This document shows, one piece after another, positions 8,314 to 41,523 of a DNA stretch of 64,000 nt. The notes beneath the pieces are model-generated. The model saw only the letters and a program-made list of their open reading frames with translations, was not told the origin of the DNA and ran no database searches. Position 1 is the stretch's first letter. Each line of letters begins with the position of its first letter. This DNA comes from Alloalcanivorax dieselolei B5 (GTDB taxonomy: Bacteria > Pseudomonadota > Gammaproteobacteria > Pseudomonadales > Alcanivoracaceae). A program made the position numbers and the translations under genes. Location of the stretch: the NCBI RefSeq assembly GCF_000300005.1, contig NC_018691.1:1736001-1800000 (forward strand). Reading direction: 5' to 3'.

Positions 8314-8626
8314 GAGAGTGCTCCTTGTTATTTGGTATACAGTTATTCGTGAGAGGACAGGGGCAATACAATGCTCCCGGGGCGGCCAGAGGGTCAAAAC
8401 AAATTAATGAAACACTATTCCAAAATGTTGACCGGCCGGCCCGCTCATGTCATCTTCCTGGAAAATGACAATCCAAGGAACCCCCTGAACGAACCGGTGG
8501 CCATTTTCGCCCGGCACCGCTCTTTCCCCGGACGCTCCCAATCCGAATCGTTCCGTCGGCCCGGTCTTGGCCGCGACGACGCGGTGTGGTTTTCAGCGGG
8601 TTCCGAATAATAAACGAGGAGAGTGT
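8314..8626. other. Divergent intergenic region, no gene
   Basis: This 313-bp gap between the aldehyde dehydrogenase and the SDR holds one rightward promoter candidate with the shared box (8413-8456). A 79-codon open frame at 8371-8610 has no recognisable domain, begins inside the promoter and is not called. The leader of the SDR transcript would be about 170 nt. Confidence 0.6.
8413..8456 (+). promoter_or_regulatory. Candidate promoter with ATTCCGAAAT-like box (copy 1)
   Basis: CTATTCCAAAAT at 8415-8426 lies immediately before TTGACC at 8428-8433. A spacer of 17 bp leads to CATCTT at 8451-8456, preceded by TGT. The arrangement matches the promoters at 31105, 34311, 36335 and 41385. The box has one mismatch (A for G) to ATTCCGAAA. 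It would drive the SDR at 8627. Confidence 0.5.
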
Positions 8627-9415
8627 ATGAACCGCTTCGATCAGAAGACCGTCTTGATCACCGGTGCCGCCAGCGGCATCGGCCGTGCCGCCGCCTTGCG
8701 TTTCGCCGAGGAAGGCGCGCGCCTGGTGCTGGTGGACCGCAACCTGGCGGGTCTCGAGGAAACCCGGGCAACGCTGCCCGCCGGGACCGAGGCCACGCTG
8801 CGTGAAGTGAATGTGGCCGACGAGCAGGCGGTGAAGACGTTGGTGGATGACATCGCCGCTTCCCACGGCGGCATCCAGGTTCTGATCAACAACGCCGGCA
8901 CCGCCGGTAACGACCACTCTCCGGTGACCGACAACAACACCGAGAACTGGAACACCATCCTTTCCGTGAATCTGCTCGGTCCCATGTTCTTTATCCGCGC
9001 GGTGGCGCCTTACATGAAAGAGCAGGGCGGCGGTGCCATCGTCAATACCGCCTCCGTGGCGGGCATTCGCTCCGGCGCTGGCGGTAACGCCTACAGCGCT
9101 TCCAAGGCTGGTGTGATCAGCCTGACCAAAACCACCGCCTGTGATCTGGGCGGCTATAACGTTCGCGTCAACGCGGTCTGCCCGGGATTGATCGAGACCG
9201 GCATGACCAAGCCGGTATTCGATTACGCCCGCGAAAACAACAAAGAGGAAAAGCTGGGCAGCCGTTGCGAACTGCGCCGCTATGGGCGCCCTTCCGAAAT
9301 CGCCGCCGCCATGGCGTTCCTGGCCAGCGACGACGCCAGTTACGTCACCGGTCAGGCGTTGGCGGTGGACGGTGGCAATACCGCTTCGTTGAACCTGCCT
9401 GGTATGAAAGTCTGA
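8627..9415 (+). CDS. SDR family oxidoreductase
   Basis: Classical SDR of 262 residues with TGAASGIG near 12-19, NNAG at 88-91 and catalytic Ser143, Tyr156 and Lys160. Asp37 at the end of strand two (VLVDRN) points to NAD(H). The start at 8627 follows ACGAGGAGAG; the earlier in-frame ATG at 8567 has no ribosome-binding site and adds unrelated residues. It stands divergent from an aldehyde dehydrogenase and upstream of an IclR regulator, suggesting an alcohol/aldehyde or hydroxyacyl oxidation step. Its candidate promoter carries the shared box described for several beta-oxidation genes. Confidence 0.9.
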   Translation: MNRFDQKTVLITGAASGIGRAAALRFAEEGARLVLVDRNLAGLEETRATLPAGTEATLREVNVADEQAVKTLVDDIAASHGGIQVLINNAGTAGNDHSPVTDNNTENWNTILSVNLLGPMFFIRAVAPYMKEQGGGAIVNTASVAGIRSGAGGNAYSASKAGVISLTKTTACDLGGYNVRVNAVCPGLIETGMTKPVFDYARENNKEEKLGSRCELRRYGRPSEIAAAMAFLASDDASYVTGQALAVDGGNTASLNLPGMKV

Positions 9416-9544
9416 TTGGCGCGGGTACCGGGCTAGTCTGGTATATTTGGCGCTTTTATCGACAACTATAAAATTCATTTATAAAGAAAGAGCGGGATAA
9501 ACCCGCTCGCCATAATCCCGAAGCCTGACCGAGGAAAGAACACG

Positions 9545-10354
9545 ATGCGACGAGCCCCTATGGGTAAAGAGGCCCAGTCGGCGGAGAAAGACCGGAACTT
9601 CGTCACCGCCCTGGCGCGGGGACTGGAAATCCTGCGCTGTTTCGGTCCCTCCGACGATTACCTGGGTAACGCGGAACTGGCTAAACGCACCAATATTCCC
9701 CGTCCCACGGTATCGCGGATGACCGCCACCCTGACGCAACTGGGCTACCTGCGTTATGTGGAGCGGCTGGAGAAATACCGGCTCGGCCCTGGCGTGCTGG
9801 ATCTCGGCTACCGCTATTTGGCCGGCGAAGGCGTCCGCGATATCGCCCGCCCGTTCATGCAGGACCTGGCCGACGCCACCGATTGCATGGTGGCGATCGC
9901 CGCTCCCAACGGCCCGTGGATGAGCTACATCCAGGTGTGCCAGGGCAGCGGGCCGCTGGTACTGCGATTGACCGTGGGATCACGAGTGCCGATGGCGGGT
10001 TCGGCGGTGGGCCGGGCCTATCTGGCCGGTCTCTCCGAAGAGGATCGCGCCACTCATCACCGTTTGATCCGCGAGCACGATCCGGACGGCTGGCCGGAGT
10101 GGGAGAAGGGTCTGGAACGGGCTTATCGCGAATATGAAGAATACGGTTTCTGCACCTCCGACGGGGAATGGAACCGCGATATCAGCGCCGTGGGGGTTCC
10201 CCTGGTGCTGGATAACGACTCCACCGTGATTCCGTTCAATTGCGGCGGCTCCTCGCTGCGCTTGAGCCGGCGGATTCTGGTGGAAAATCTCGGCCCCCGG
10301 CTCAAGGAGCTGGTGGGACAGGTCAAGGAAATGTTGCAGGGCCGGGACGTGTGA
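9545..10354 (+). CDS. IclR family transcriptional regulator
   Basis: A 269-residue IclR-type regulator. The winged helix-turn-helix covers about 15-80 (LAKRTNIPRPTVSRMTATL then GYLRYVERLEKYRLG), followed by the effector-binding domain (about 95-265) with GSRVPMAGSAVGRAYLAG. The start follows GAGGAAAG; a second in-frame Met at 9560 is possible. It lies 129 bp after the SDR and 43 bp before the thioesterase, so it may be cotranscribed with the latter. Members sense small acids or aromatic compounds; the ligand is unknown. It is one of two IclR candidates that could read the shared ATTCCGAAAT box. Confidence 0.9.
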   Translation: MRRAPMGKEAQSAEKDRNFVTALARGLEILRCFGPSDDYLGNAELAKRTNIPRPTVSRMTATLTQLGYLRYVERLEKYRLGPGVLDLGYRYLAGEGVRDIARPFMQDLADATDCMVAIAAPNGPWMSYIQVCQGSGPLVLRLTVGSRVPMAGSAVGRAYLAGLSEEDRATHHRLIREHDPDGWPEWEKGLERAYREYEEYGFCTSDGEWNRDISAVGVPLVLDNDSTVIPFNCGGSSLRLSRRILVENLGPRLKELVGQVKEMLQGRDV

Positions 10355-10397
10355 TGGACGGTGATCCGACTCCGCGTCCGGCCCGGGAGAGTAGTGA

Positions 10398-10865
10398 GTG
10401 AGCAGTAGTATGACGCCGGACGCGGTGCCGGCCCTGAACCAGGCCGCAGACAAATTCAAACACGGGTTTTTGGGCACCATTGGCTTTCACTTTCTGGAAT
10501 GGGAAGAAGACCGGGTGGTGCTGGGGCTCAATGTGGTGGAGAAACACCTCAATCTGGGCAACGTGATTCACGGCGGTGTGCTGGCCACGTTGCTGGACGT
10601 TTCCGGAGCCTGTTCCGGCAGCTATTGCCCCTATCCGGGCAGGGTGCGCAAGGCGCTGACCCTGTCGTTGACCACCACCTTCACCGGTCAGGCCGGCCCG
10701 GGTCTGGTACGTGCCATCGGCGTGAAGCGGGCCGGCGGCAGCCGCATCTTCAACTCGTCCATGGAAGTGCTGGATGCCAACGACCGGTTGCTGGCATTCG
10801 GTGAAGGTACTTTCCGCTTGCGTGGCGGCTCCGAGGATCCCAAGGGCGTGCCGGTGGATTACTGA
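10398..10865 (+). CDS. PaaI family (hotdog) thioesterase
   Basis: A 155-residue single hotdog-fold protein. The motif GNVIHGGVLATLLDVSGACS (the HGG loop and following helix with the Asp) is typical of PaaI/YdiI-like acyl-CoA thioesterases. It would release CoA from an acyl- or aryl-CoA in the cytoplasm. I use the GTG at 10398, 8 bp after GGGAGA; an ATG at 10410 is an alternative. It follows the IclR gene closely, and fits a CoA-recycling role in the surrounding acyl-CoA metabolism. Confidence 0.82.
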   Translation: MSSSMTPDAVPALNQAADKFKHGFLGTIGFHFLEWEEDRVVLGLNVVEKHLNLGNVIHGGVLATLLDVSGACSGSYCPYPGRVRKALTLSLTTTFTGQAGPGLVRAIGVKRAGGSRIFNSSMEVLDANDRLLAFGEGTFRLRGGSEDPKGVPVDY

Positions 10866-11065
10866 GAGAAGCCAGTGACTCCCTCGCCGGCGCCCCTTTA
10901 ATCCCTAAGTCGCGTCTTTATAGTACTTTCGGCTAATTCCCTCATTTGATGGCGGGGCCCGTCAAAACCCTGTGCTATGCTCTTTGGTATAAGTGTCTCT
11001 GGCCAGCGGCGCCGCCGCGGGCAGGGACACCGACCTTGGACCGATTGAGGCAGGAGCGGAACCCC

Positions 11066-11767: not shown

Positions 11768-11840
11768 CCTCGGCCGCCGGGAACGCATGAACCGGGTAAC
11801 GAAAGCCGGGTAAATAACAACAAGTATCCGGGAGTAGACC

Positions 11841-14409: not shown

Positions 14410-14412
14410 ACC

Positions 14413-28900: not shown

Positions 28901-29073
28901 TCCACGGCTTTCGCCGAGGCCCCGGGGTAGCTGGCCTCGATGGTGACTTCCGGCGGTGCCACGGTGGGGTACTGCTCCACCGGCAAAGTATTGATCGCCA
29001 GGGCGCCCGCCATCATCAGAACGATGGCGATCACCCAGGCGAAAATGGGTCGATCAATAAAGAAATTGGCCAT
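25927..29073 (-). CDS. RND multidrug efflux pump inner membrane transporter (AcrB/MexB family)
   Basis: A 1048-residue HAE1-type RND transporter. It starts [17 protein letters not shown], has the TM4 proton-relay Asp pair in [16 protein letters not shown], the KSMGQIT segment, and the second-half helices LGVIGAVL and [17 protein letters not shown] with the relay Lys. Twelve membrane helices and two large periplasmic domains fit the family length. It would export hydrophobic drugs, solvents or bile-like detergents by proton antiport. It starts 12 bp after the adaptor gene with GGGGAG before the ATG. Confidence 0.95.
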
Positions 29074-29085
29074 GTTGCTCCCCGA

Positions 29086-30285
29086 TTACTCGGCGTTGGC
29101 GTTGTTCGGGCCGTTGTCCTGGGCCTGGGTTTGCTGCGCTTGCTGCTTTTGCGCCTCGACGTCCACACCTTCCACCGGCATGCCGGGGCCGATCTTTTGC
29201 AGGCCGTCGACGATCAGTTTGTCGCCGGCGGCGAGGCCAGCGCCGATCAACCAGCGGTTGCCCACCGTGCGCACGGTTTCCACCTGACGTTTTTCCACCG
29301 TGTTGTTGTCGCCGATGACCATGGCACTGGCGGTGCCTTGCGGATCACGGGTGACCGCTTTCTGTGGCACCAGGATGGCGTTGTCGCGTTGTCCCTGGGG
29401 CAGCTTGGCGCGCACGAACAGACCGGGCAGCAGGTCGCCGTCGGGATTGGGGAACAGGGCGCGCAGGGTGATCGAGCCGGTGCTTTCATCCACCGCGTAC
29501 TCGGAGAATTGCAGGGTCCCGCTCTGGTCGTACTCGGTGCCGTCTTCCAACACCAGAGTGACGCGCGCCTTGTCTTCGCCGACCTGTTCCAACTGCCCGC
29601 TTTCCATGGCCACGCGCAGTTGACGCAACGCACGGGCGGACTGGGTGAGGTCCACATAGATCGGATCCAATTGACGAATGGTGGCCAGCGCCTCGCTCTG
29701 GTTGGCGGTGACCAGAGCACCGGCGGTGACGGTGGAACGGCCGATACGCCCGGAAATCGGCGCCTTGACACTGGCGTAGTCCAGGTTCAGGCGAGCGGTA
29801 TCCACCGCGGCCTGGGCGGCGGCGATCTGCGCTTTGTTGGTGCCCAGACTGGCGCGGGCATTGTCGTACTCCTGACGGCTTACCGCGTTCGCTTCCACCA
29901 GAGTCTTATAGCGGTCGGCCAGCAGCTGGTTGGACTCCAGTGTGGAACGGGCGCTGGCCAGATCCGCCTGGGCGCTGGCCAGTGCCGCCTTGAACTGGCG
30001 ATCGTCGATACGATAAAGCACCTGCCCGGCCTCAACTTCGGCGCCTTCATCGAACAGACGTTCCTTGATAATGCCGCTCACTTGAGGACGAATCTCCGCC
30101 ACCTCGTAGGGGCTGGTGCGGCCGGGCAGTTCGTTGACGACGGTATAGGGTTCCGGTTTAACCGTGATGAAACCCACCTGCGCCGCACCGCCGGCACCTT
30201 GCTGCTGAGGCGCGTCGTTTCCGCAGGCGGTCAGGGCGAGGGCAAAAAAGAAAAGGACAGAAACATGGACCGATCGTGCGCGCAT
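29086..30285 (-). CDS. RND efflux periplasmic adaptor lipoprotein (AcrA/MexA family)
   Basis: A 399-residue membrane fusion protein. The lipobox is ALTACGND (Cys at about 21), followed by the biotinyl-lipoyl-like halves (RTSPYEVAEIRPQVSGIIKERLFDEG and VKAPISGRIGRS), a helical hairpin between them and the beta-barrel domain. The C-terminal tail is rich in Gln, Ala and Asn. It is the first gene of the operon, transcribed leftward from the region carrying the AcrR-like palindrome. CGAGG precedes the start. Confidence 0.93.
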   Translation of the reverse strand: MRARSVHVSVLFFFALALTACGNDAPQQQGAGGAAQVGFITVKPEPYTVVNELPGRTSPYEVAEIRPQVSGIIKERLFDEGAEVEAGQVLYRIDDRQFKAALASAQADLASARSTLESNQLLADRYKTLVEANAVSRQEYDNARASLGTNKAQIAAAQAAVDTARLNLDYASVKAPISGRIGRSTVTAGALVTANQSEALATIRQLDPIYVDLTQSARALRQLRVAMESGQLEQVGEDKARVTLVLEDGTEYDQSGTLQFSEYAVDESTGSITLRALFPNPDGDLLPGLFVRAKLPQGQRDNAILVPQKAVTRDPQGTASAMVIGDNNTVEKRQVETVRTVGNRWLIGAGLAAGDKLIVDGLQKIGPGMPVEGVDVEAQKQQAQQTQAQDNGPNNANAE

Positions 30286-30382
30286 AGAAACCTCGGTTTC
30301 CTATGAAAATCAATGAATTTTGGTTGCTTCCGTTACGGCGAGAAAGCGCGGATACCCGATAATTACACAAAAGCGAAAAGAG

Positions 30383-30410
30383 TATACATACATTCGTAGA
30401 TGTATGTATA
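30383..30410. promoter_or_regulatory. AcrR-like operator palindrome
   Basis: TATACATACAT (30383-30393) and ATGTATGTATA (30400-30410) are perfect inverted arms around TCGTAG. The core TACATACATT...ATGTATGTA matches the operator read by Escherichia coli AcrR. It lies in the 159-bp gap between the efflux operon and its divergent TetR gene, so it can repress both. Confidence 0.8.
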
Positions 30411-30444
30411 GTTCCGCCATCAGCGTGATCACAGGAGTCCGGCC

Positions 30445-31092
30445 ATGAGGCGCACCAAGGCGGAAGCTCAGGAGACCCGTGAGCAGATACTCGACGCGGC
30501 GGAGCGCGTCTTTCATGAAAAAGGCGTATCGAGGACCTCCTTGAATGACATCGCCGGCGCGGCGGGGTTCACTCGTGGTGCCATTTATTGGCATTTCAAA
30601 AACAAACATGATGTTTTTGCCGCCATGTTGGAGCGAAAGCGTTTGCCGCTGGAGGCTTTGGCGCAGCGGGCGGAGCACCCTGAAGAGAAGGATCCGCTGG
30701 GGCGGTTGCGGGAATTCCTGATCTACGTGCTCTGTGAAACCGTCCGTGATCCGAGCCGTCGGCGGGTATTGGAGATCATATTCCAAAAATGTGAATTTAC
30801 TGTGGAAACCGATCCTCTGATGGCCCGCCAGAAGGAATCCTTTCTGGAAGCCTCCAAATCCATGCGAATCATCCTTGGCCGCGCCATCGAGCGCGGGCAA
30901 CTGCCTGAAAGTCTGAACATCGAGCGTGCCGTGACCTTGCTGCATGTGCAAGTGTGTGGCCTTCTTTATGTCTGGTTGCTGGTCCCGGAGACCTTTGATC
31001 TCGAACAGGAAGCGGCCCATCATGTGGACTGCTATCTCAACACGCTGGCGTCGTGCCCCTCCATTTCCGGGCGCCCGGATTCTCCTTCCTGA
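30445..31092 (+). CDS. TetR family repressor of the RND pump (AcrR/TtgR-like)
   Basis: A 215-residue TetR-type repressor. The N-terminal helix-turn-helix spans about 10-57 (ILDAAERVFHEKGVSRTSL, GFTRGAIYWHFKNKHDVF), almost identical in pattern to AcrR and TtgR; the C-terminal ligand domain follows (about 70-205). It is divergent from the efflux operon and 34 bp downstream of the AcrR-like palindrome, so local autoregulated repression relieved by hydrophobic effectors is likely. Start at 30445 follows an AGGAG at 30432-30436. Confidence 0.9.
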   Translation: MRRTKAEAQETREQILDAAERVFHEKGVSRTSLNDIAGAAGFTRGAIYWHFKNKHDVFAAMLERKRLPLEALAQRAEHPEEKDPLGRLREFLIYVLCETVRDPSRRRVLEIIFQKCEFTVETDPLMARQKESFLEASKSMRIILGRAIERGQLPESLNIERAVTLLHVQVCGLLYVWLLVPETFDLEQEAAHHVDCYLNTLASCPSISGRPDSPS

Positions 31093-31104: not shown

Positions 31105-31158
31105 ATTTCGGAACGTGATTTTGAAATAATTGACGCCACCCAAGGGTCATGTCACATT
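31105..31158 (+). promoter_or_regulatory. Candidate promoter with ATTCCGAAAT-like box (copy 2)
   Basis: TTGACG at 31130-31135, a 17-bp spacer and CACATT at 31153-31158 preceded by TGT. TTTTGAAATAAT lies directly upstream of the -35 at the position of the box in other copies, and a clean inverted TTCCGAAAT occurs at 31105-31113. It would drive the SDR at 31343 with a leader of about 180 nt. Confidence 0.5.
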
Positions 31159-31342: not shown

Positions 31343-32107
31343 ATGAGTAAGCTGTTTGATCTCACGGGAAAAGTCGCTCTGATCACCGGATCCACCCGGG
31401 GTATCGGTAAAGCCATCGCCGAGGAAATGGCCCGTGCTGGCGCCAAGGTGGTCATCTCCAGCCGCAAGCCGGAGCCTTGCCATGAAGTGTGCGAGGCGAT
31501 CAAGGCGGAAGGTCACGAGGCCATCGCCGTGCCCTGTAACGTGGGCAGCAAGGATGATTTGATGAACCTGGTAGATGAAACCCTGGCGGCCTTTGGCAAG
31601 ATCGATATTCTGGTCTGTAACGCCGCCACCAACCCGGTTTACGGCCCCACCGCGGAAGTCAGCGACGAGGCCTGGGACAAGATTCTCGACACCAACGTCA
31701 AGGGCACGTTCTGGCTGTGCAACCGGGTACTGCCGATCATGGCCGAGAACGGCGGTGGTAACGTGGTGATCATTTCCAGCATCGCCGGACTGCGCGGCAA
31801 CAGCGTGATTGGCACCTACGGCGTCTCCAAGGCGGCGGAAGCGGCGCTTGCCCGCAACCTGGCGGTGGAGTGGGGGCCGAAGAATATTCGTGTCAACGCC
31901 ATTGCTCCGGGGCTGGTGCGCACCGATTTCGCCAAGGCTCTGGTGGAAGACCCGGTTCGCCGTCAGCGCGCCGAGGAACGCACACCGGTGCGCCGTATCG
32001 GCGATCCGGTGGATATCGCCGGGGTGGCGTTGTTCCTGTCCAGCGCCGGCAGCGCTTACGTGACCGGTCAGACCATCGTGGCGGACGGCGGCGAAACCAT
32101 TTGTTGA
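31343..32107 (+). CDS. SDR family oxidoreductase
   Basis: Classical SDR of 254 residues with TGSTRGIG near 15-22, CNAA at 92-95 and catalytic Ser145/146, Tyr159 and Lys163. Strand two ends ISSRK, as in the SDR at 700, suggesting NADP(H). The start at 31343 follows AGGAGA; the frame is open far upstream to 31130 but that stretch covers the promoter. It is followed by an APH-like kinase gene, mirroring the kinase-SDR pair at the left end of the window. Its promoter candidate bears the shared box. Confidence 0.9.
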   Translation: MSKLFDLTGKVALITGSTRGIGKAIAEEMARAGAKVVISSRKPEPCHEVCEAIKAEGHEAIAVPCNVGSKDDLMNLVDETLAAFGKIDILVCNAATNPVYGPTAEVSDEAWDKILDTNVKGTFWLCNRVLPIMAENGGGNVVIISSIAGLRGNSVIGTYGVSKAAEAALARNLAVEWGPKNIRVNAIAPGLVRTDFAKALVEDPVRRQRAEERTPVRRIGDPVDIAGVALFLSSAGSAYVTGQTIVADGGETIC

Positions 32108-32288: not shown

Positions 32289-32310
32289 CCGATTTAATTT
32301 GAGGTTCCTT

Positions 32311-33369
32311 ATGGAAGGTCAACCGGAACTGGTGCCGGTCCTTGAGGCCCATCGTTTCGATGAAAACCGCCTGTCCCGATATCTGGATCAGGCCGGGCTG
32401 CTGGCCGGAGCGTTGCGGGTGCAACAGTTCCAGGGCGGACAATCCAACCCCACTTACTTGCTGGAAAGTGGCGAGCGCCGCTATGTACTGCGCAAGAAGC
32501 CGCCGGGCAAGGTGTTGCCCTCGGCGCATCAGGTGGACCGCGAATATCGGGTGATGAAGGCATTGGGCGAGCACAGCGACGTGCCGGTGCCGGCCATGCG
32601 TGCGCTCTGCGAGGACGATGACGTTATCGGCACCAGTTTTTACGTCATGGATTTCGTGCCCGGCCGGGTGTTTTCCGAGCCACTGCTGGAAAGTCTGCCC
32701 ACCGATCAACAGCGCCGCGCCGTCTATGAGGCCATGGTGGATACCCTGGCCAAACTGCACAGCGTTGACTACAAGGCCGCCGGCTTGGAGGATTTTGGAC
32801 GTCCTCAAGGGTATGTGGCGCGCCAGGTGAAACGCTGGCGGGCTCAGTACCAGGCCTCCAAGACCGATGACCTGCCGGCCATGGACAACCTGATCGACTG
32901 GCTCGAGGAGCACATTCCCGAGGACGACAGTGCCGCCATTGCTCACGGTGACTTCCGAATGGGCAATCTGCTGCTGGCACCGGACCAGCCCGGGGTGGTG
33001 GCGGTGCTGGACTGGGAACTGGCCACCATTGGCCATCCGCTGGCGGATCTGGCTTACTTCTGTCTGCCGTATCATCTCCCCCACGGTATTCAGGGGGTGC
33101 GCGGCCTGGACGGTCTGGATCTGAGCGGACGCGGCATTCCCGATGAGCATGCATTGCTGGAGCGTTACTGTCGCGGTTGTGGCCGCGATGGCATCAGCGA
33201 CTGGCCGGTATTTCTGGCCTTCGCGCTGTTCCGCACCGCGGCGATCCTGCAGGGGGTCTACGCCCGGGCCCTGCAGGGCAACGCCAGCAACCGTGATGCG
33301 TTGGAAGTCGGCAAACGGGCCGGACTGATGGCCGAGCGCGGCTGGCAAATCGCCCGTACTCACCAATAA
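32311..33369 (+). CDS. Phosphotransferase family protein (APH/ACAD10-like kinase)
   Basis: A 352-residue kinase-fold protein. The N-lobe has GGQSNPTYLL (about 42-51) and the Lys-containing VLRKKPPGK; the catalytic loop AHGDFRMGN gives Asp214 and Asn219, and DWE gives Asp234. It is homologous over its length to the truncated protein at the left end. Mammalian ACAD10/11 and bacterial LvaA relatives phosphorylate 4-hydroxyacyl-CoA to allow its conversion to 3-hydroxyacyl-CoA; a similar role is inferred. Start at 32311 is preceded by TTGAGG; an upstream TTG at 32299 is less likely. Confidence 0.88.
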   Translation: MEGQPELVPVLEAHRFDENRLSRYLDQAGLLAGALRVQQFQGGQSNPTYLLESGERRYVLRKKPPGKVLPSAHQVDREYRVMKALGEHSDVPVPAMRALCEDDDVIGTSFYVMDFVPGRVFSEPLLESLPTDQQRRAVYEAMVDTLAKLHSVDYKAAGLEDFGRPQGYVARQVKRWRAQYQASKTDDLPAMDNLIDWLEEHIPEDDSAAIAHGDFRMGNLLLAPDQPGVVAVLDWELATIGHPLADLAYFCLPYHLPHGIQGVRGLDGLDLSGRGIPDEHALLERYCRGCGRDGISDWPVFLAFALFRTAAILQGVYARALQGNASNRDALEVGKRAGLMAERGWQIARTHQ

Positions 33370-33472: not shown

Positions 33473-34243
33473 ATGAAGCCCTTCCAACGTATCCTTCTTA
33501 CCAACGACGATGGCATCGACGCCCCCGGTCTGAAAGTGGCCGAGGTGATCGCCGCGGAACTGGCCGAGGAGGTCTGGGTGGTGGCGCCGGAGCATGATCA
33601 AAGCGGGGTGGGGCAAAGTATTTCGCTGCACAGCCCGTTGCGGGTATATCACCACGGCGAGCGCCGCTACGCCGTTTCCGGTACGCCGGCGGATTGCGTC
33701 CTTTTCGCCATGACGGAGTGGCTGGAGGAAACACCGCCGGATCTGGTGCTGTCCGGGGTTAACTGTGGCGCCAATCTGAGTGACTCGGTGATGTACTCCG
33801 GTACCGTTGGCGCGGTGCTGGCGGCGGCCCATCTGGGGTTGCCTGGCGTGGCGCTGAGCCAGGCGTTTCTGGATCGGGATGCCATCAATTACGCACCAGT
33901 GAGCGAGCTGGCGGCGGGACTGATCCGGCAATTATGGGAGCGTCACACCGAGCATTGCTGCTGGAACCTCAACTTCCCCGATCTGCCGCTGGCGCGGATC
34001 AAGGGTAACCGCATCACCCGCCAGGTGCCCGGCAGCATCCGCCGCGCCCGGTTGGTGGCCGGACGTGACGGTCGCAATCTGTCCTACCATTGGCTGACCT
34101 TCGAGCGCGATCCGGATTCCATCGATCACCCGCAGTCCGACGTGGTGGCTCTGCGTGATGGCCGTGTGTCGGTGATGCCGCTGAGACCTTCCCGTTGTGA
34201 TGACGATCTGGCCGACGCCTTGTGGCAGAAAGGCGAGTGGTAA
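33473..34243 (+). CDS. surE: 5'/3'-nucleotidase SurE
   Basis: A 256-residue SurE protein. The metal-binding ILLTNDDGIDAPGL at the N-terminus (Asp12-Asp13), the Ser in the DQSGVGQSIS loop and Asn in LSGVNCGANL are diagnostic, as is SGTPADCV. It is a cytoplasmic metal-dependent phosphatase acting on nucleoside monophosphates and other phosphates. In most gammaproteobacteria surE sits with pcm, nlpD and rpoS; here it stands inside a catabolic region after a kinase-like gene. Start follows AGGAGCC. Confidence 0.93.
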   Translation: MKPFQRILLTNDDGIDAPGLKVAEVIAAELAEEVWVVAPEHDQSGVGQSISLHSPLRVYHHGERRYAVSGTPADCVLFAMTEWLEETPPDLVLSGVNCGANLSDSVMYSGTVGAVLAAAHLGLPGVALSQAFLDRDAINYAPVSELAAGLIRQLWERHTEHCCWNLNFPDLPLARIKGNRITRQVPGSIRRARLVAGRDGRNLSYHWLTFERDPDSIDHPQSDVVALRDGRVSVMPLRPSRCDDDLADALWQKGEW

Positions 34244-34593
34244 AAAAGGGGCGTGGTGAGTGACCCGGCGGGATTGGCACGCCCATCAGATCATTCACCG
34301 CCGAAAATATGAAACCATATTCCGAAATAGTATTGACGCCCCGCGGGGCGCGTGTCAGATTCTCCGGCTATTCCATTTGGCGGGCCGCGGAGTTCGAAAG
34401 GGTCTCGGTCGCCGAAGGTTAACGACGTTTTCCGAAGCATTTCCGCCCAGGCGGAAGTGGCGGTTTCGTCGTATCACCTGTTGCCTATGCAGCACCATAT
34501 GCAGCAACAACAAGCGGGTACCAGCCTCCACAACGCGGGCCCCAAGAAAAAAGTGGCCTTTGTCGCCACAGTCGAATCGTAGGGAGAGTTAGC
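34244..34593. other. Intergenic region upstream of acyl-CoA synthetase
   Basis: A 350-bp gap with a promoter candidate at 34311-34361 and a leader of about 230 nt. A GTG-initiated frame at 34352-34582 (76 codons, Gln- and Ser-rich) has no recognisable domain and starts at the -10 region; I do not call it as a gene. GGGAGAG precedes the acyl-CoA synthetase start. Confidence 0.55.
34311..34361 (+). promoter_or_regulatory. Candidate promoter with ATTCCGAAAT box (copy 3)
   Basis: ATATTCCGAAATA at 34318-34330 precedes TTGACG at 34333-34338; a 17-bp spacer leads to CAGATT at 34356-34361, preceded by TGT. The 13-bp box is identical to the one at 41387. It would drive the acyl-CoA synthetase. Confidence 0.6.
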
Positions 34594-36270
34594 ATGTTTG
34601 ATCGGCATTTTGCCGTTTGGCCTGAAAACCTGCCGCATCACCTGACCATTCCGGAAACCAGCCTCTGCACCAATCTTGATGTCTCCGCGCTGCGCTACCC
34701 GGAAAAACCGGCCATCATTTATTACGACCATACCATCACCTACCGGGAACTGAAGCGCCAGGTCGACGCTCTGGCCGGCTACCTGCAAACATTGGGCGTG
34801 GACAAAGGTGACCGCGTCCTGCTGTACATGCAGAACGCTCCTCAATTCATCATCGGTTACTACGCCATTCTGCGGGCCAACGCCATCGTCGTGCCGATCA
34901 ACCCGATGAACCGCACGGCGGAACTGGAACACTACCTGGAGGATACCCAGGCAACGGTGACGCTGGCGGCGCAAGAAGTGTTCGCCAATATCGTGCCGCT
35001 GATCGGCACCCGGCAGCTGCGTCATGTCATCGTGGCGTCCTACAGCGACTATATCGACCCGCAAACCGATCTGGACCTTCCCGCGGAAGTGCGGGCGCCG
35101 GCGCAGCCTTTGCAAACCGAAGGTGCGATCGCCTGGCGCGACGCCATCGATGCCGGCAAGACGCCCGGGGAATTGCTGGTGGGGCCGGACGATCTGGCGG
35201 TGTTCCCCTACAGCTCCGGGACCACCGGCGCTCCCAAAGGCTGCATGCATACCCACCGGTCGGTGATGGCCACCTGTGTGCATGGCGTGGCCTGGCGCTC
35301 TGGCGGCGGCAGTGAGGGGATCATCCTCTCCACCCTGCCGTACTTCCATGTCACCGGCATGCAGGGCGCCATGAACGCGCCCATCTACACCGGTGCCTGC
35401 ATCGTGCTGATGACCCGCTGGGACCGCCGTACCGCGGCCACCCTGATTCAGCGTTATCAGGTCACCAGTTGGACCAACATCGTCACCATGGCCATCGATC
35501 TGCTGTCCGATCCGGAGGTGGAATCCTTCGATCTGTCCAGCTTGCAGAACATCGGCGGTGGTGGCGCGGCCATGCCGGAAGCGGTCTCCGACAAGCTGTT
35601 CAAGCTCACCGGGCTGCGCTACATCGAAGGGTATGGCCTCTCCGAGACCATCGCCGCCACCCACATCAATCCCGCCGAGAAGCCAAAGAAACAGTGCCTT
35701 GGCATTCCGGTCTTCGACGTGGATTCCCGCGTCATCGACCAGGAGACCGGCAAGGAACTGGGCGTCGGGGAAGTGGGGGAGATCATTTCCCACGGCCCGC
35801 AGATTTTCCAGGGTTACTGGAACCGTCCGGAGGAAACCGAGAAGGCCTTCATCGAACTGGACGGCAAGCCGTTCTTCCGTACCGGAGACATGGGGTACTA
35901 CGACGAAGAAGGCTATTTCTTCATCGTCGACCGGGTGAAACGGATGATCAATGCGTCCGGCTTCAAGGTCTGGCCCGCCGAAGTGGAAAGTCTGATGTAC
36001 CGCCATCCCGCCATTCAGGAGTGCTGCATCATCTCCGCGCCGCACGAGCGCCGTGGCGAAACGGTGAAAGCCTGTGTGGTTTTGAACGCCAAGGATAAAG
36101 ATAACGTCAGCGAGGACGATATCATTACCTGGTGCAAGAATGAGATGGCCGCCTACAAGGTGCCGCAGATCGTCGAATTCCGCGATGAGCTGCCTCGTTC
36201 GCCCACCGGCAAGGTGATGTGGCGGGCATTGCAAGAGCAGGAATGGGCGACGAACGAAAGCGCCTCCTGA
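34594..36270 (+). CDS. Long/medium-chain acyl-CoA synthetase (AMP-forming)
   Basis: A 558-residue ANL-superfamily ligase. The P-loop-like motif YSSGTTGAPKGCMHTH is at about 205-220, GYGLSETIA at about 345-353, the hinge region GDMGYYDEEGYFFIVDR with Asp, and the C-terminal catalytic Lys in SPTGKVMWR. It would activate a fatty or other carboxylic acid to its CoA ester with ATP. It resembles the long-chain-fatty-acid CoA ligases lacking membrane segments. It has its own box-bearing promoter and terminator, and is followed by the Liv-type transporter operon. GGGAGAG precedes the ATG. Confidence 0.9.
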   Translation: MFDRHFAVWPENLPHHLTIPETSLCTNLDVSALRYPEKPAIIYYDHTITYRELKRQVDALAGYLQTLGVDKGDRVLLYMQNAPQFIIGYYAILRANAIVVPINPMNRTAELEHYLEDTQATVTLAAQEVFANIVPLIGTRQLRHVIVASYSDYIDPQTDLDLPAEVRAPAQPLQTEGAIAWRDAIDAGKTPGELLVGPDDLAVFPYSSGTTGAPKGCMHTHRSVMATCVHGVAWRSGGGSEGIILSTLPYFHVTGMQGAMNAPIYTGACIVLMTRWDRRTAATLIQRYQVTSWTNIVTMAIDLLSDPEVESFDLSSLQNIGGGGAAMPEAVSDKLFKLTGLRYIEGYGLSETIAATHINPAEKPKKQCLGIPVFDVDSRVIDQETGKELGVGEVGEIISHGPQIFQGYWNRPEETEKAFIELDGKPFFRTGDMGYYDEEGYFFIVDRVKRMINASGFKVWPAEVESLMYRHPAIQECCIISAPHERRGETVKACVVLNAKDKDNVSEDDIITWCKNEMAAYKVPQIVEFRDELPRSPTGKVMWRALQEQEWATNESAS

Positions 36271-36318: not shown

Positions 36319-36334
36319 GCACTGCGAAATACCA

Positions 36335-36376
36335 TTCCGAATATTGACGCTTCGGTGAGGTGCTGTTAGCGTCTTG
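36335..36376 (+). promoter_or_regulatory. Candidate promoter with ATTCCGAAAT-like box (copy 4)
   Basis: ACCATTCCGAATA is followed at once by TTGACG at 36344-36349, so the box overlaps the -35 region. A weak -10 lies near 36366-36372 (TTAGCG) within TGTTAGCGTCTT, which keeps the TGT and TCT flanks seen in other copies. It would drive the five-gene transporter operon. Confidence 0.5.
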
Positions 36377-36379
36377 GCC

Positions 36380-36401: not shown

Positions 36402-36550
36402 AGTATGCCGGCGAGAGCGTCCGTACCATAACAACCCAGAAAGTGAAGCGTGCCATTTGGCGGTAGAGAGTGGCAGTGGACAGTGGCGGTGGAGCGTCAC
36501 TGGCTAACGACACAAGGCGCGTTTCATTATTATTATAAGGAGTCGCAGTT

Positions 36551-37414
36551 TTGGACTTGTTTCTGCAGCAAGTGCTCAATGGCCTGACCCTGGGAAGCAT
36601 ATATGGCCTGATTGCCCTGGGCCTGACCCTGGTCTATGGCATTCTCCATGTTCCCAATTTCGCCCACGGTGCGCTGTATATGGTGGGGGCCTACGTGGCT
36701 TACTTCACCATGGTGGACCTGGGGCTGAACTACTGGCTGGCGATGATCGCCGCCGGTGCGGTAGTGGCCTTCCTTTCCGTTCTTTGTGAGCGTCTCGTCT
36801 TTCACCCGCTGCGTCATGCGCCGCCCATTCACGACAAGATCGCCGCCATCGGCATCCTGTTGTTCCTGGAGGCGGTGGTGCAGATGTACTGGGGCGCGGA
36901 TTTCCGCCGCATGCCCACGCCCTATAACGAGATCCTGCATTTCGGCGGTCTTACCATTCCGGCCCAGCGTCTGTTGATCATCGCGGGTGCCTTTGGCCTG
37001 ATGGGCGCCTTGCACCTGTATCTGAAAAAGACCATGACCGGCGCCACCATCATCGCCATGGCGCAAAACCGGGAAGGCGCCTTCCTGGTGGGTATCGACG
37101 CCAACCGCGTGGCGATGATGACGTTCGCCATCGCTGGCGTGTTGGCGGCGGTGGGCGCGACCCTGTTCGCACCGATCAACCTGGTCTACCCGGCCATGGG
37201 ACACCTGCTGATCATGAAAGCCTTCGTGATCATTATTCTCGGTGGTATGGGCAGCATTCCCGGCGCCATCGTCGGTGGCTTGATCATCGGCTTCGCCGAA
37301 GCCCTGGGCGGTTTCTATATCTCCAATGAATACAAGGACGTCATCGCCTTCGCGTTGCTGGTGGTGATTTTGTCGGTGAAACCCACCGGGCTGTTCACCA
37401 AGGGGGTGCGCTAA
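36551..37414 (+). CDS. livH: Liv-type ABC transporter permease (LivH family)
   Basis: A 287-residue inner membrane permease with about eight hydrophobic segments, starting MDLFLQQVLNGLTLGSIYGL as in LivH. The conserved IILGGMGSIPGAIVGG near residue 230 is the cytoplasmic coupling motif. The start is TTG at 36551, placed by AAGGAG at 36537-36542, an unusual but well-supported choice. It is the first gene of a five-gene unit and overlaps the next gene in TAATG. The substrate is not necessarily a branched-chain amino acid; nearby genes point to an acid that is later activated to CoA. Confidence 0.9.
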   Translation: MDLFLQQVLNGLTLGSIYGLIALGLTLVYGILHVPNFAHGALYMVGAYVAYFTMVDLGLNYWLAMIAAGAVVAFLSVLCERLVFHPLRHAPPIHDKIAAIGILLFLEAVVQMYWGADFRRMPTPYNEILHFGGLTIPAQRLLIIAGAFGLMGALHLYLKKTMTGATIIAMAQNREGAFLVGIDANRVAMMTFAIAGVLAAVGATLFAPINLVYPAMGHLLIMKAFVIIILGGMGSIPGAIVGGLIIGFAEALGGFYISNEYKDVIAFALLVVILSVKPTGLFTKGVR

Positions 37415-38457
37415 TGGATCGCCTGATGAACTTCTTTGTCAGCCCAGTGCTGAAATGGGCCTTGCTGGTGTTGGCGGTGGTGTTTCCGCTGATCTCCGAT
37501 AACGAGTACCACATCTACGTGATGGCCACGGCCTTTATCTGGGCCATCGCCGTCTACGGCATGAACATCATCACCGGTTACTGTGGTCAGCTGAATCTGG
37601 CGCATGGCGGCTTCTTCGCCATCGGCGCCTATGTGGTGGCGATCCTGACGGTGGATCATGAGTGGGCGTTCTGGCCGGCGTTCATCGCCGCCGGTCTGGC
37701 CGGCGCCATCTTTGGTTTCCTCGTTGGCGTGGTGTCCCTGCGTCTGAAGGAGCATTACTTCGCCATCTTCACCTTGTGCGTGGGCTTCATCATTTATCTG
37801 TTGCTGGAGAAATGGGAAGAACTCACGCACGGCTCCCTCGGCATTATCAACATCGCCCCGCCGGAAGGGTTCGGTTTGGTGGATTTCACCGAGACCGTGC
37901 CGTTCTATTACCTGGTGCTGGCGTTCCTGGTGTTGTCCGTGTGGCTGGTGAGCCGCCTTTCCCGTTCGCTGTTGGGCCGGACTTTCCTGGCCATCCGCAT
38001 CAGTGACGACCTGGCGCAATCACTGGGCATCAATCTGATGCGCAACAAGGTTCTGGCGTTCGTGCTGTCCACCGTTTACGCCGCCTCGGCCGGTGCTTTG
38101 TACGCCGGTGTGGTGCGTTTCATCGGCCCGGCGGAAGCGGATGTGGTGCATACCTTCGACATGATCACCTACCTGCTGGTGGGCGGTATTGGCACCTTGA
38201 TGGGGCCGCTGCTCGGCACCCTGGCGATCACCTGGCTGACGCAGATGCTGCAGTCCCTGGAAGAGTACCGCATGATCATCTTCGGCCCGATGCTGGTGAT
38301 TCTGGTGATCTTCTTCCCGCGCGGTATCGTCGGTGGTTTCCTGACCTGGCGCGGACGTCGCCTGGCCAATAAAGCGTCTCAACAGGGCCAGGGCGGGGAA
38401 TCTCCGACTCCCAGCACGCCCAACGCGGACAAACAGGAGGCCGGCAACAATGCTTAA
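37414..38457 (+). CDS. livM: Liv-type ABC transporter permease (LivM family)
   Basis: A 347-residue permease with about nine hydrophobic segments and the LivM-type motifs ITGYCGQLNLAHGGFFAIGAY (split across about 54-74) and LVGGIGTLMGPLLG. It pairs with the LivH-like protein to form the membrane channel. The C-terminal tail beyond about residue 310 is polar (QQGQGGESPTPST). It overlaps livH by one base and the ATPase gene by 8 bp, indicating translational coupling. Confidence 0.9.
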   Translation: MDRLMNFFVSPVLKWALLVLAVVFPLISDNEYHIYVMATAFIWAIAVYGMNIITGYCGQLNLAHGGFFAIGAYVVAILTVDHEWAFWPAFIAAGLAGAIFGFLVGVVSLRLKEHYFAIFTLCVGFIIYLLLEKWEELTHGSLGIINIAPPEGFGLVDFTETVPFYYLVLAFLVLSVWLVSRLSRSLLGRTFLAIRISDDLAQSLGINLMRNKVLAFVLSTVYAASAGALYAGVVRFIGPAEADVVHTFDMITYLLVGGIGTLMGPLLGTLAITWLTQMLQSLEEYRMIIFGPMLVILVIFFPRGIVGGFLTWRGRRLANKASQQGQGGESPTPSTPNADKQEAGNNA

Positions 38458-39217
38458 GATCAGTAATCTGACCAAGCGTTTCGGCGGCCTGGCGGCGGTC
38501 AATAACGTCAGCGTGGAATTCCCCGCCAATCAGGTGAACGCCATCATCGGCCCCAACGGGGCTGGTAAAAGTACTTTCTTCAATCTGGTAGCCGGAGCGA
38601 TGCCGCCCAGCGAAGGCAAGATCGAATATCAGGGCATGGACATCACCGGCATGGCGCCGGACCGGATTGCCCGTCTCGGCGTGGCGCGGACTTTCCAGAC
38701 CACCATGCTGTTCGATCAGTCCACCGTGCTGGACAACCTGATCGTCGGCCACCGGCTGCGCACCCAGTCGCGCCTGTGGGACGTGATCATCAACTCCAAG
38801 CGTCTGCGTGACGAGGAGAAGAAGTGCCGCTCCCGCGCCGCCGAGGTGCTGGACTTCGTCGGGCTGTCCCATATCGGCCATCGCTACATCGTCGATATCA
38901 GCCAGGAAGAGCGCAAGCGGGTGGCTTTCGCTTTGGCCATGGCCACCGATCCGGAACTGGTGCTGCTGGATGAACCGGCCGGTGGTATCAATCCCGAGGA
39001 GACGGAGAATCTGGCCGACCTGATTCGCAAGATGGTCAAGCACGGCATCACCGTCTGCCTGATCGAGCACAAGATGGACATGATCATGAGCCTGGCGGAC
39101 AAGATCATGGTGCTGGATCACGGAGAGAAGATCGCCGAGGGAACCCCGGAGCAGATCAAGAACGATCCGGTGGTCATCGAGGCTTACCTGGGGAGTGAAC
39201 AAGATGTTGAAGCTTGA
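38450..39217 (+). CDS. livG: Liv-type ABC transporter ATP-binding protein (LivG family)
   Basis: A 255-residue ABC ATPase. Walker [10 protein letters not shown] is at about 36-44, and Walker [11 protein letters not shown] near 165. The signature region reads [13 protein letters not shown] rather than the usual LSGGQQ/LSYGQQ, so the central glycine pair is replaced. The long insert typical of LivG ([10 protein letters not shown]) is present. It overlaps livM by 8 bp, and its own end overlaps the region just upstream of livF. Confidence 0.9.
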
Positions 39218-39911
39218 AAACGTCGACGCCAAGTACGATAGCTTCAAGGCCCTGGATAAGGTCTCCATGACCGTGGGGCAGGGCGAACTGGTGGTGCTGC
39301 TGGGGGCCAATGGCGCCGGCAAGACCACCTTGTTCAACACCATCAGCGGTCTGCTTAAGCCCTCCGCCGGCAGCATTACCCTGAACGGCGAGGACGTGAC
39401 CGGACGGCGGCCGTCCGCTCTGGTGCAAGCCGGCGTGGTGCAGTGTCCGGAAGGCCGCAAGCTGTTCCCGGAAATGTCGGTGATGAAGAACCTGGTGTTG
39501 GGCGCGTACGTGCACCGCCGTGACAAAGCCGGCATCAGGAAGACCCTGGACCAGGTGCTGGAGATGTTCCCGATCCTGGAAGAGAAGAAAAACCAGGCGG
39601 CGGGATCGCTCAGTGGTGGTCAGCAGCAGATGGTGGCGATCGGTCGTGCCCTGATGGGGCGCCCGAAACTGATGCTGCTGGATGAGCCGTCCCTGGGGTT
39701 GGCGCCGCTGGTGGTCAAGCAGATGTTCGAGACCATTCAGACCATCAATAACGCGGGCACCACGGTGCTGCTGGCGGAGCAGAACGCCTTTGCCGCGTTG
39801 AAGATCGCCACCCGCGCCTATGTGATCGAGAACGGTCGCCTGGTGATGGAAGGGGACCGCGACGCCATGCTCGGTAACGAGGCGGTGCGCAAGGCCTATA
39901 TCGGTGCCTGA
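39204..39911 (+). CDS. livF: Liv-type ABC transporter ATP-binding protein (LivF family)
   Basis: A 235-residue ABC ATPase with Walker [10 protein letters not shown] at about 36-44, signature LSGGQQQM and Walker [14 protein letters not shown], the standard LivF pattern. The start at 39204 is placed by GGGGAG at 39190-39195; it overlaps livG by 14 bp. It forms a heterodimer with LivG, whose signature motif is degenerate, so the canonical signature of this subunit may provide the main catalytic site. Confidence 0.92.
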
Positions 39912-40033
39912 TCACAATCCGATTAGCGGCCTCTGGTGGCCTCTGCTCGGTGCTTTATGATCGTCAACGTACGTTAGCGTGATGTACTACGTTTATAACA
40001 ATGGTGATCCCTACAAAAAATGGGAGTGAAGTA

Positions 40034-41197
40034 ATGAAACTGAAGAAAACGTTTGTTCGCCTGGCCACCGCCAGTGCGCTGGTTATGGGTATGGGGGCCG
40101 CCAACGCCGCCGAAGTCAACATCGGCTTTACCGGTCCGCTCAGCGGCGGCGCGGCGCTGTACGGTGAGAATACGCTGGAAGGCCTGCGCATGGCGGCCGA
40201 GGAAATCAACGCCGCCGGTGGCGTGAAAGTGGGTGGCGAAAGCTACGACGTCAACATCGTTTCCCTGGACGACAAGTATTCCCCGAGCCAGGCGGCGGTG
40301 AATGGCAAGCGTCTGGTGCAGCAGTACAAAACCCCGGCGGTGTTCACCCCGCACTCCGGCGGCACCTTCGCGCTGCAGGCCTTTAACCAGCGTGACGGCT
40401 TCATCGTCATGTCCTACACCTCGATCCCGTCCGTGACCGAGAAGGGCAACAAGCTGACCGTGAAGATTCCGCCGTCCTTCACCGACTACATCGAGCCGTT
40501 CTCCAAGATGGCCATGGAAACGTCCGGCAAGAAAGTGGCGGTGGCCAACGCCACCCACGACTACGCCAAGTACTGGACCAAGGCGTTCGTGCCGAAGTGG
40601 GAAGCCATGGGCGGTGAAGTGGTCGCCGACAACCCGATGGACTACAACAAGTCCGCGGACTTCTACACCGGTGTGAGCAAGGTGCTGGCGGCCAAGCCGG
40701 ACGTGCTGTTCATTGGTGGCGCTTCCGAGCCCACCGGTCTGGTGGTGCGTCAGGCCCGCGAACTGGGCTTCAAGGGCAGCTTCATCCTGATGGACCAGGC
40801 CAAGATCGATGAAGTGGCGAAAGTGGCCGGTGGTCTGCAGGCGGTGGAAGGCTCCGTGGGCGTAACGCCGCTGAGCAGCTCCGCAATCGAAGGGGCGCGC
40901 AAGTTCGTCGAAAAATACCAGCAGAACCACAAAAACGTGGCTACCTCCGAAACCGCTTACAACTATTTCGCCATGCATATGCTGGCACAAGCCATGCAGG
41001 AAGCGGGTTCCGTCGATGATCCGGCCAAGATCCGCGCCGCCATGCCGGCCGCGTTGAAAAAGATTCCGGCCGAGTACAACCCCTACGACGTGAACGGCAT
41101 TTCCGAAAACGGCGCTCTGGAGACCGATGTGCAACTGGCCCAGGTCATCGATGGCAAGGTGGTGCTGCGCCGCCTGTCTGATGTGCTCAGTCAGTAG
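40034..41197 (+). CDS. Liv-type ABC transporter substrate-binding protein
   Basis: A 387-residue periplasmic binding protein of the type 1 fold. Signal peptide about 1-26 (ending GAANAA), then VNIGFTGPLSGGAALYGENTLEG, the hallmark start of LivK/J-like proteins. It carries TPHSGGTFALQAF and VLFIGGASEPTGLVVRQ for ligand contacts. The ligand cannot be inferred exactly: related proteins bind branched-chain amino acids, aromatic acids or short carboxylates. A 122-bp gap separates it from livF, so it may have its own promoter and higher expression. GGGAGTGA precedes the ATG; a terminator follows. Confidence 0.9.
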   Translation: MKLKKTFVRLATASALVMGMGAANAAEVNIGFTGPLSGGAALYGENTLEGLRMAAEEINAAGGVKVGGESYDVNIVSLDDKYSPSQAAVNGKRLVQQYKTPAVFTPHSGGTFALQAFNQRDGFIVMSYTSIPSVTEKGNKLTVKIPPSFTDYIEPFSKMAMETSGKKVAVANATHDYAKYWTKAFVPKWEAMGGEVVADNPMDYNKSADFYTGVSKVLAAKPDVLFIGGASEPTGLVVRQARELGFKGSFILMDQAKIDEVAKVAGGLQAVEGSVGVTPLSSSAIEGARKFVEKYQQNHKNVATSETAYNYFAMHMLAQAMQEAGSVDDPAKIRAAMPAALKKIPAEYNPYDVNGISENGALETDVQLAQVIDGKVVLRRLSDVLSQ

Positions 41198-41218
41198 TTT
41201 TTCCTAGAACGTTTCCTC

Positions 41219-41247
41219 AAGGGCACCCGATGGGTGCCCTTGTCGTT
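41219..41247 (+). terminator. Terminator after the substrate-binding protein gene
   Basis: AAGGGCACCC and GGGTGCCCTT form a perfect 10-bp stem with a 3-nt loop, followed by GTCGTTT. It lies 22 bp after the stop codon. Confidence 0.75.
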
Positions 41248-41300
41248 TCCGGCCTATACCCATGGCGTGGTTGGCTCTGTGCCATGGCATGGGTTGGGGG

Positions 41301-41352
41301 TATGGTATTCAAACGGAATGGTATTGACTGGGACCGGTGACTCGGAATTATC
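41301..41352 (+). promoter_or_regulatory. Candidate promoter with inverted ATTCCGAAAT-like box (copy 5)
   Basis: GGTATTCAAACGGAATGG stands directly before TATTGACT (-35 at 41324-41329). Read in reverse complement it contains ATACCATTCCG, shared with copy 4. A weak -10 (ATTATC) lies at 41347. It may be an extra operator for the promoter at 41385. Confidence 0.4.
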
Positions 41353-41384
41353 CGCTTCCACGCCCCTGGCCAATTAAATGAAAT

Positions 41385-41427
41385 GATATTCCGAAATAAT
41401 TGATAATGGGCCGGGTTTTCTTATACT
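41385..41427 (+). promoter_or_regulatory. Candidate promoter with ATTCCGAAAT box (copy 6)
   Basis: ATATTCCGAAATA at 41387-41399 overlaps the start of TTGATA at 41400-41405; a 16-bp spacer leads to a strong -10 TATACT at 41422-41427. The box is identical over 13 bp to copy 3. It would drive the FadB-like gene and the two acyl-CoA dehydrogenases with a leader of about 90 nt. Confidence 0.65.
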
Positions 41428-41523
41428 GGGACCCCCCCGGGATCTATCCCGCGCCCGTATTCCCATGGTTTCCGTGACGCTCGTCGTTAATCACGGAGGC
41501 CAACCTTTAGGTAAGGAGGAACC

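Follow-up and report, generated by a model that had tools for sequence, protein, structure and literature searches.

A palindromic operator shared by neighbouring catabolic promoters of Alloalcanivorax dieselolei B5 and its likely IclR-family regulator

The window analysed here is a whole stretch of 64,000 nucleotides, positions 1736001 to 1800000 of the 4,928,223-base (4.93 Mb) genome of Alloalcanivorax dieselolei B5; coordinates are those of the window unless stated otherwise. Five promoters in it, which head genes for acid uptake and beta-oxidation, carry the same short box next to the -35 element. We find that each box is one half of a palindromic operator, and that the operators most probably belong to the IclR-family protein encoded at 9545-10354, which would repress these acid-uptake and beta-oxidation units. 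An earlier inspection of the letters alone (hereafter the sequence-only reading) had noticed the boxes and proposed that one regulator controls a regulon for acid uptake and beta-oxidation. What it observed is largely right, though the motif was half seen; its interpretation is right in outline and partly supported, the single regulator being the well-supported part. The features on which the argument turns are listed below, with SDR for short-chain dehydrogenase, CoA for coenzyme A and bp for base pairs.

8408..8422, plus strand: operator of SDR1-IclR, TGAAACACTATTCCA, possibly shared with a divergent aldehyde dehydrogenase gene
8428..8456, plus strand: SDR1-IclR promoter, -35 TTGACC (8428-8433), N17, extended -10 TGT-CATCTT (hexamer 8451-8456); similar in relatives
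8627..9415, plus strand: SDR1, a short-chain dehydrogenase
9545..10354, plus strand: IclR-family regulator of 269 amino acids, the next gene after SDR1
31109..31123, plus strand: SDR2-APH-SurE operator, CGGAACGTGATTTTG; a third half-site, TTTC, lies upstream of it at N7
31130..31158, plus strand: SDR2 promoter, TTGACG, N17, extended -10 TGT-CACATT
31343..32107, plus strand: SDR2, a short-chain dehydrogenase
32299..33369, plus strand: APH-fold kinase of ACAD10/11 (LvaA-like) type
33473..34243, plus strand: SurE-type nucleotidase
34310..34324, plus strand: operator of FadD, TGAAACCATATTCCG
34333..34361, plus strand: FadD promoter, TTGACG, N17, extended -10 TGT-CAGATT; same layout in relatives
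34594..36270, plus strand: FadD-like acyl-CoA synthetase, PRK08314 subfamily, above cut-off
36325..36339, plus strand: operator of LivHMGFK, CGAAATACCATTCCG, a candidate three-box site with TTTC-N7 upstream
36344..36372, plus strand: LivH promoter, TTGACG, N17, extended -10 TGT-TAGCGT (TGTTAGCGT, hexamer at 36367)
36551..41197, plus strand: Liv-type ABC transporter (two permeases, two ATPases, binding protein)
41379..41393, plus strand: operator of FadB, TGAAATGATATTCCG
41400..41427, plus strand: FadB promoter, TTGATA, N16, TATACT; aligned in relatives
41524..46033, plus strand: FadB-like gene and two acyl-CoA dehydrogenases

By inspection, the forward boxes had been placed correctly near 8415, 31119, 34318, 36331 and 41387, together with their TTGAC or TTGAT -35 elements. 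The -10-like TGTCAnnTT does follow exactly 17 bp on at 8451, 31153 and 34356; a similar element serves the fourth promoter, and the fifth reads TTGATA-N16-TATACT. When the upstream regions of orthologs were compared in 24 relatives, a second conserved half, GRAAY, emerged 3 bp to the left of the box, so that the short box makes up only the right-hand part of a palindrome. The full operator is TGRAAY-N3-RTTYC(A/G) with an A-rich tail that ends 0-4 bp before the TTGA(C/T) -35. On its own the short box gives a weak signal: at one mismatch or fewer it matches seven times in the window where 2.75 matches are expected, a count that 3 of 100 shuffles also reach. Because this enrichment is mild, we rejected it as the motif and adopted the full operator in its place. 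An additional inverted box, TTCCGAAAT, had also been reported at 31105. What stands there is GGAAC, which forms the left half of the SDR2 operator, together with its flank, rather than a separate box. The inverted copy proposed at 41301 fared worse, being kept only in the near-identical genome G018, changed in G028 and G029 (with TTGAC lost in G029) and not shown in the remaining 14 aligned genomes.

Among 43 distinct sites from the Alcanivoracaceae, collected with TGRAAY-N3-RTTYC(A/G) and hence fixed at those positions by construction, the central three bases are nearly free, and an AAT(A) after the operator is strongly kept although it was absent from the search pattern. On the right-hand side of the operator GAAAT was considered as a third half-site, but it reads AAAAT in many sites and was taken as A-rich flank. 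On the left, a third box TTYC stands 7 bp before GRAA in 16 of 61 distinct contexts, against five or fewer at any other spacing from 2 to 14; this TTYC-N7 form occurs only before FadD, LivH, SDR2 and FadB. Taking the start of the -35 as position -35, the 15-bp palindromes end 4-8 bp before it and are centred at about -47 to -51, so that the operator core lies beside the -35 and not on it. The claim that the box sits over the -35 thus holds for the A-rich tail, which reaches it, and fails for the palindrome. The distance from operator to -35 is 14 for FadD, 12 for FadB and SDR2, 11 for SDR1 and the IclR gene, and 10 or 11 for LivH; wherever the strict form is kept it is constant among the orthologs of each gene, LivH excepted. 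Long leaders, by comparison, are no property of the system: the distance from the start of the SDR1 operator to its gene is about 219 bp here, against 80-85 bp in eight genomes of the genus and 123 bp in a ninth.

Within its own genome the operator is confined to this region. ATTCCGAAAT is present exactly twice genome-wide, both times inside the window. A composite of box and -35, modelled on the five sites, picks out no other site in 4.93 Mb (that it recovers the five is by construction), with none in the reversed control, and the strict operator with its -35 likewise occurs five times, all at these sites, again with a reversed control of zero. Because this strict form is found nowhere else in the genome, the regulon is probably local. 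The strict pattern was written after the promoters of relatives had been inspected, so that its presence in relatives is partly by construction, and its absence elsewhere is not. Looser searches add little: at two mismatches or fewer a genome scan gives 61 + 48 matches against 41 + 58 in the control, which is noise, and the full pattern at three or fewer gives 30 + 29 against 13 + 16, an excess partly inflated because palindromes are read on both strands. Three matches in the latter scan have 0-1 mismatch, all of them window sites, and among eight inspected loci outside the window with two mismatches only that at genome position 1731418 precedes a beta-oxidation gene. The genome-wide test that the sequence-only reading proposed, enrichment before other beta-oxidation genes, thus also points to a local regulon, to which weaker but conserved sites add the further targets described below. 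As a separate observation, locus L150 (1501-1520; genome 2723703) holds a near-perfect palindrome, TGAAATAGTGTTTCA, about 170 bp before a gene with a TAXI-type-receptor-like start, possibly the operator of another IclR or a remote member of the 9545 regulon.

Conservation of the operator was followed in 46 Alcanivoracaceae genomes, with reversed patterns as controls, and with a position weight matrix (PWM) built from the five own-genome sites only. Counting scores of at least 14 on the gene strand upstream of orthologs, and setting aside the near-identical G018, G028 and G029, the operator stands before FadD in 19 of 20 far genomes, FadB in 18 of 20, the IclR gene in 11 of 11, SDR1 in 5 of 10, LivH in 4 of 20 and SDR2 in 0 of 10. 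For seven genes of the same loci taken as controls the count was 0 of 115, and randomised upstreams (96 per gene, either strand) reached a maximum of 17.3 with 95% points of 9.4-13.9. In its strict form the operator precedes FadD in 21 of 24 upstreams and SDR2 in 4 of 14, own genome included; with its -35 it precedes SDR1 in 13 of 14. Variant palindromes occur before SDR2 in G022, where the variant is directly before the gene, and in G031. In eight of the ten far genomes an ACAD11-type gene stands directly before SDR2, and an operator with TTGAC precedes that gene in five of the eight (G021, G023, G024, G025, G027); only degenerate palindromes were seen there in G019, G020 and G026.

The link to the regulator rests on co-occurrence and on position. 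The protein encoded at 9545 has the domains HTH_IclR (PF09339, E 1.6e-17) and IclR_C (PF01614, E 1.8e-13), and it is 99-100% identical to proteins of Alloalcanivorax balearicus, A. xenomutans and Alcanivorax sp. 24. Operator and -35 are found in 25 of the 46 family genomes (reversed control, 0 of 46), an ortholog of this IclR is found in the identical 25, and the other 21 have neither. Of the 17 genomes in the second genus, 11 carry both and six neither; of the seven in the fourth genus, one carries both. Judged by position, the regulator's own unit is preceded by the operator in 25 genomes, either before SDR1-IclR (14 upstreams, that of G031 degenerate and without a -35) or before the IclR gene itself (11).

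Further targets are predicted in and beside the window, as follows.

6889..8397, minus strand: aldehyde dehydrogenase (ALDH) open reading frame, divergent from SDR1, a possible co-target
8392..8397, minus strand: possible ALDH -35 TTGACC, 10 bp from the SDR1 operator, proposed from inspection of the sequence
52336..53094, minus strand: class II aldolase/adducin-domain gene (PF00596, E 3.5e-46), a predicted target
53113..53127, minus strand: operator before this aldolase gene, separated by two bases from the preceding TATATT (53135-53130)

The aldolase site (53108, minus strand, score 18.6) is the best PWM match outside the set noticed by the sequence-only reading. It recurs in 13 of 13 same-genus genomes (score 18.3-23.6; own and three near-identical genomes included), although aldolase promoters were not used in building the PWM, and it is absent before three of three distant homologs in other genera. 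Among the orthologs it reads TGAAATACTATTTCA, a perfect palindrome, in three loci, TGAAACACTATTTCA, with one mismatched pair, in five, and looser forms in the remaining five. Just to the left of the window, operators also stand before two minus-strand genes: one for an enoyl-CoA hydratase (genome 1733264), in all six same-genus stretches examined, and one for an acyl-CoA dehydrogenase (genome 1731418), in five of the six. Four of these stretches are the own and near-identical genomes. A further gene with operator and -35 is present in G003, G004, G016, G017 and G022 (an acyl-CoA dehydrogenase by Pfam in G004), and the ALDH gene may share the operator at 8408.

Outside the family, a scan with the IclR alignment alone gave 80 loci, of which 58 lie beyond the Alcanivoracaceae (1,128,423 bases for the operator scan). 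In nine Salinisphaera-type loci (L190, L192-L197, L200, L220), an IclR 59-65% identical to that at 9545 is clustered with SDR2, APH, SurE, FadD and FadB, in eight of them with the Liv genes too, and similar operators are present. The cluster is partly represented in Alkalilimnicola (L199) and Stutzerimonas azotifigens (L244); the IclR gene stands divergent from LivHMGFK in four Burkholderiaceae loci (L216-L219). The strict operator has 20 matches against 2 reversed, and ten Salinisphaera/Alkalilimnicola-group loci account for 19 of them; seven extra-family loci have operator and -35. L192 and L220 are near duplicates. In the same 58-locus scan it was not found in L197, in L198, or in any Halomonas, Burkholderiaceae or Stutzerimonas locus. 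In the second genus, ALDH is divergent from the IclR gene itself, with the operator between them. Three side observations belong here. The SurE nucleotidase gene (33473-34243) lies inside a catabolic unit, that of SDR2 and APH, and is retained there in Salinisphaera-type loci. At least seven of 15 Halomonas/Vreelandella/Saccharospirillum loci have an operator-like site (score 18-20) about 3 kb before the IclR gene. Eight Rhodobacteraceae loci (L232, L233, L234, L239, L240, L242, L243, L247) have GAAATGCAATTYTGC...GCGRAA or GTGGAA-like sites, near 4040-4145, 1889 or 8000, before acyl-CoA dehydrogenase or SDR genes beside an IclR gene, and a three-box relative of this operator is a possible explanation.

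A reading of the boxes as A+T-rich stretches that stand by chance before sigma-70 promoters has almost nothing left to it: the mild enrichment of the 10-bp box alone (7 against 2.75) would suit it, but it is already contradicted by conservation across genera where control upstreams give 0 of 115, by the perfect co-occurrence with the regulator in 46 genomes, and by a further target, the class II aldolase, that was predicted and then found conserved. Of the two IclR genes that the sequence-only reading put forward, 9545 keeps its place, with orthologs in the same 25 genomes as the operator. The other, at 56391, was rejected, its orthologs being restricted to 4 of 46 genomes, and it is very unlikely that either this protein or an IclR encoded elsewhere binds the sites, even though several IclR-type genes are apparent in the genome (13 first-look candidates for the 9545 protein and 15 for the 56391 protein, unconfirmed one by one). 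Hardly any weight falls on the MAATS-type TetR gene at 30445-31092. It adjoins SDR2 here, and a TetR homolog stands directly before FadD in the second genus, but the motif is of IclR type, the operator precedes the TetR gene itself in 0 of 18 upstreams, and the gene is divergent from that of an HlyD-type pump subunit, a more usual target. Moreover, this TetR was not found at 50% identity or above in the 15-kb stretch of G031, which keeps the FadD operator, and none of the 58 extra-family loci showed it at the threshold applied there. Apart from the question of control, 24473-31092 appears to hold an efflux operon together with this divergent TetR, adjoining the regulon (the HlyD-type subunit was identified, the rest judged by size), and the second IclR gene (56391-57464) has an internal TGA in its G028 and G029 orthologs, with no ortholog found in 42 of 46 family genomes.

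Assignment of the operators to the 9545 protein has to be set against several results. The FadB ortholog occurs in 24 of 46 genomes, all with the IclR, so that there is no natural knock-out; because genomes without the IclR are also without the FadB target, the co-occurrence shows joint inheritance of a module, not that sites vanished once the regulator was gone, and the missing operator in 21 genomes may reflect mere absence of targets. No operator at PWM 14 on the gene strand was found before SDR2 in 10 of 10 far genomes or before LivH in 16 of 20, and the looser genome scans are near noise level. Close relatives of these genes are lacking beside the IclR homolog (52-58% identity) in all 15 loci of the Halomonas/Vreelandella/Saccharospirillum set. 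Operator centres near -50, finally, would also suit an activator.

For the mode of control, we infer binding and its sign from sequence, conservation and linkage. The IclR protein would bind its operators as a dimer, or as a tetramer on three-box sites, and without effector would block RNA polymerase at the target promoters and at its own. An acid, its CoA ester or a metabolite would release it, which would induce the Liv-type importer, the acyl-CoA synthetase, the ACAD11-type kinase, two SDRs, the class II aldolase, the FadB-like protein and two acyl-CoA dehydrogenases, and probably ALDH. Repression is likely, as had been proposed, for better reasons than a position over the -35. We favour it because the aldolase operator lies downstream of the putative -10, two bases after TATATT, because the operator of the acyl-CoA dehydrogenase gene beyond the left edge of the window immediately precedes the Shine-Dalgarno sequence, because the -35 elements are near consensus, and because the operator offset varies between promoters (10-14, up to 4 bp). 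The positions of these two operators and the varying offset also make it rather improbable that the 9545 protein binds as an activator or dual regulator, like members of the PcaU/PobR type, in spite of its best subfamily match (PcaR/PcaU/PobR, though far below cut-off), the operator centres beside the -35, and the weak -10 hexamers with extended TGT. KdgR is a repressor, and IclR and AllR carry repressor names in profile annotation. Related motifs are given for E. coli IclR, AllR and KdgR (Table 1, PMC8222616).

The substrate is the least certain step. The kinase at 32299 matches the ACAD11 kinase domain over nearly its full length (8v3v, E 1.4e-80; 3dxp, E 4.4e-104), and an ACAD11-type dehydrogenase (G025 copy against ACAD11 8v3u, E 1e-147) is the first gene of the SDR2-kinase operon in 8 of the 14 family genomes that have SDR2. 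At 73-83% identity it also occurs in 13 loci of the Salinisphaera/Alkalilimnicola/Stutzerimonas group. It is not in the SDR2 operon of the own genome, of three near relatives, or of G022 and G031; the best own-genome copies lie away from that operon at genome positions 3932520 and 1734307. Both dehydrogenases after FadB have nearest relatives other than ACAD11, the first matching 4x28 and Tcur3483 best among solved structures, and the binding protein at 40001 and SDR2 have only generic solved relatives. ACAD10/11 and LvaA/LvaC are described as opening 4-hydroxyacyl-CoAs for beta-oxidation (PMC11342911). Because the kinase is of ACAD11 type and relatives have an ACAD11-type dehydrogenase in the operon, 4-hydroxy or similarly blocked acids are suggested, and a reasonable guess is an acid barred from ordinary beta-oxidation, such as a 4-hydroxy or 4-oxo acid. 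A bolder proposal, which we hold only tentatively and think doubtful in full, is that the IclR is a dedicated sensor of 4-hydroxy/4-oxo (gamma-blocked) fatty acids or of the corresponding CoA esters, with the regulon as a complete ACAD11-type import-and-unblocking pathway inherited as one module by Alcanivorax, Alloalcanivorax and Salinisphaera; if true, such a module would let oil degraders use subterminally oxidised acids. In either case, one regulator and an exact operator for an uncharacterised catabolic module of marine hydrocarbon-associated bacteria would make an inducer search by simple reporter possible, and a bacterial counterpart of the ACAD10/ACAD11 kinase in the regulon would offer a genetic handle on the sensing and opening of the 4-hydroxy-acid route.

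Three known systems bear comparison. The published group-2 IclR motif is TGRAACA N1-2 TGTTYCA (Suvorova and Gelfand 2021, PMC8222616), and with the group-2 regulators tabulated there (E. coli IclR, TGGAAATNATTTCCA; KdgR; AllR) the present system shares the family, the TGRAAC-N3-GTTYCA geometry, catabolic targets and, judged by operator position, probable self-regulation; a three-box arrangement is also published for the family, and TTYC-N7-GRAA-N5-TTYC at some promoters here may correspond to it. It differs in that its predicted targets make up at least six neighbouring transcription units instead of one or two, in an RTTYC with A oftener than G, and in a kept A-rich tail beside the -35. Alcanivorax and Salinisphaera are unnamed in the main text of that paper, its supplements lying outside this statement, and among the literature search listings there was no publication linking this IclR to either genus. 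PcaR/PcaU/PobR is the nearest NCBIfam subfamily by score and has acid catabolism in common, but the protein scores far below its cut-off (TIGR02431, 127.3 against 284.75), the motifs listed for it in PMC8222616 (e.g., GTTCGATWATCGMAC) differ, and no beta-ketoadipate genes are among the targets found here. The Lva pathway of Pseudomonas putida and ACAD10-ACAD11, as presented in PMC11342911, share the acyl-CoA synthetase, APH-type kinase and SDR, whereas a Liv-type importer, a FadB-like gene, SurE and IclR control are found here, with the ACAD11-type gene outside the operon. This, then, is a genuine but ordinary regulon of a known kind, very likely under one nearby IclR-family protein, and what is new is a well-delimited example with a likely controller and further predicted members.

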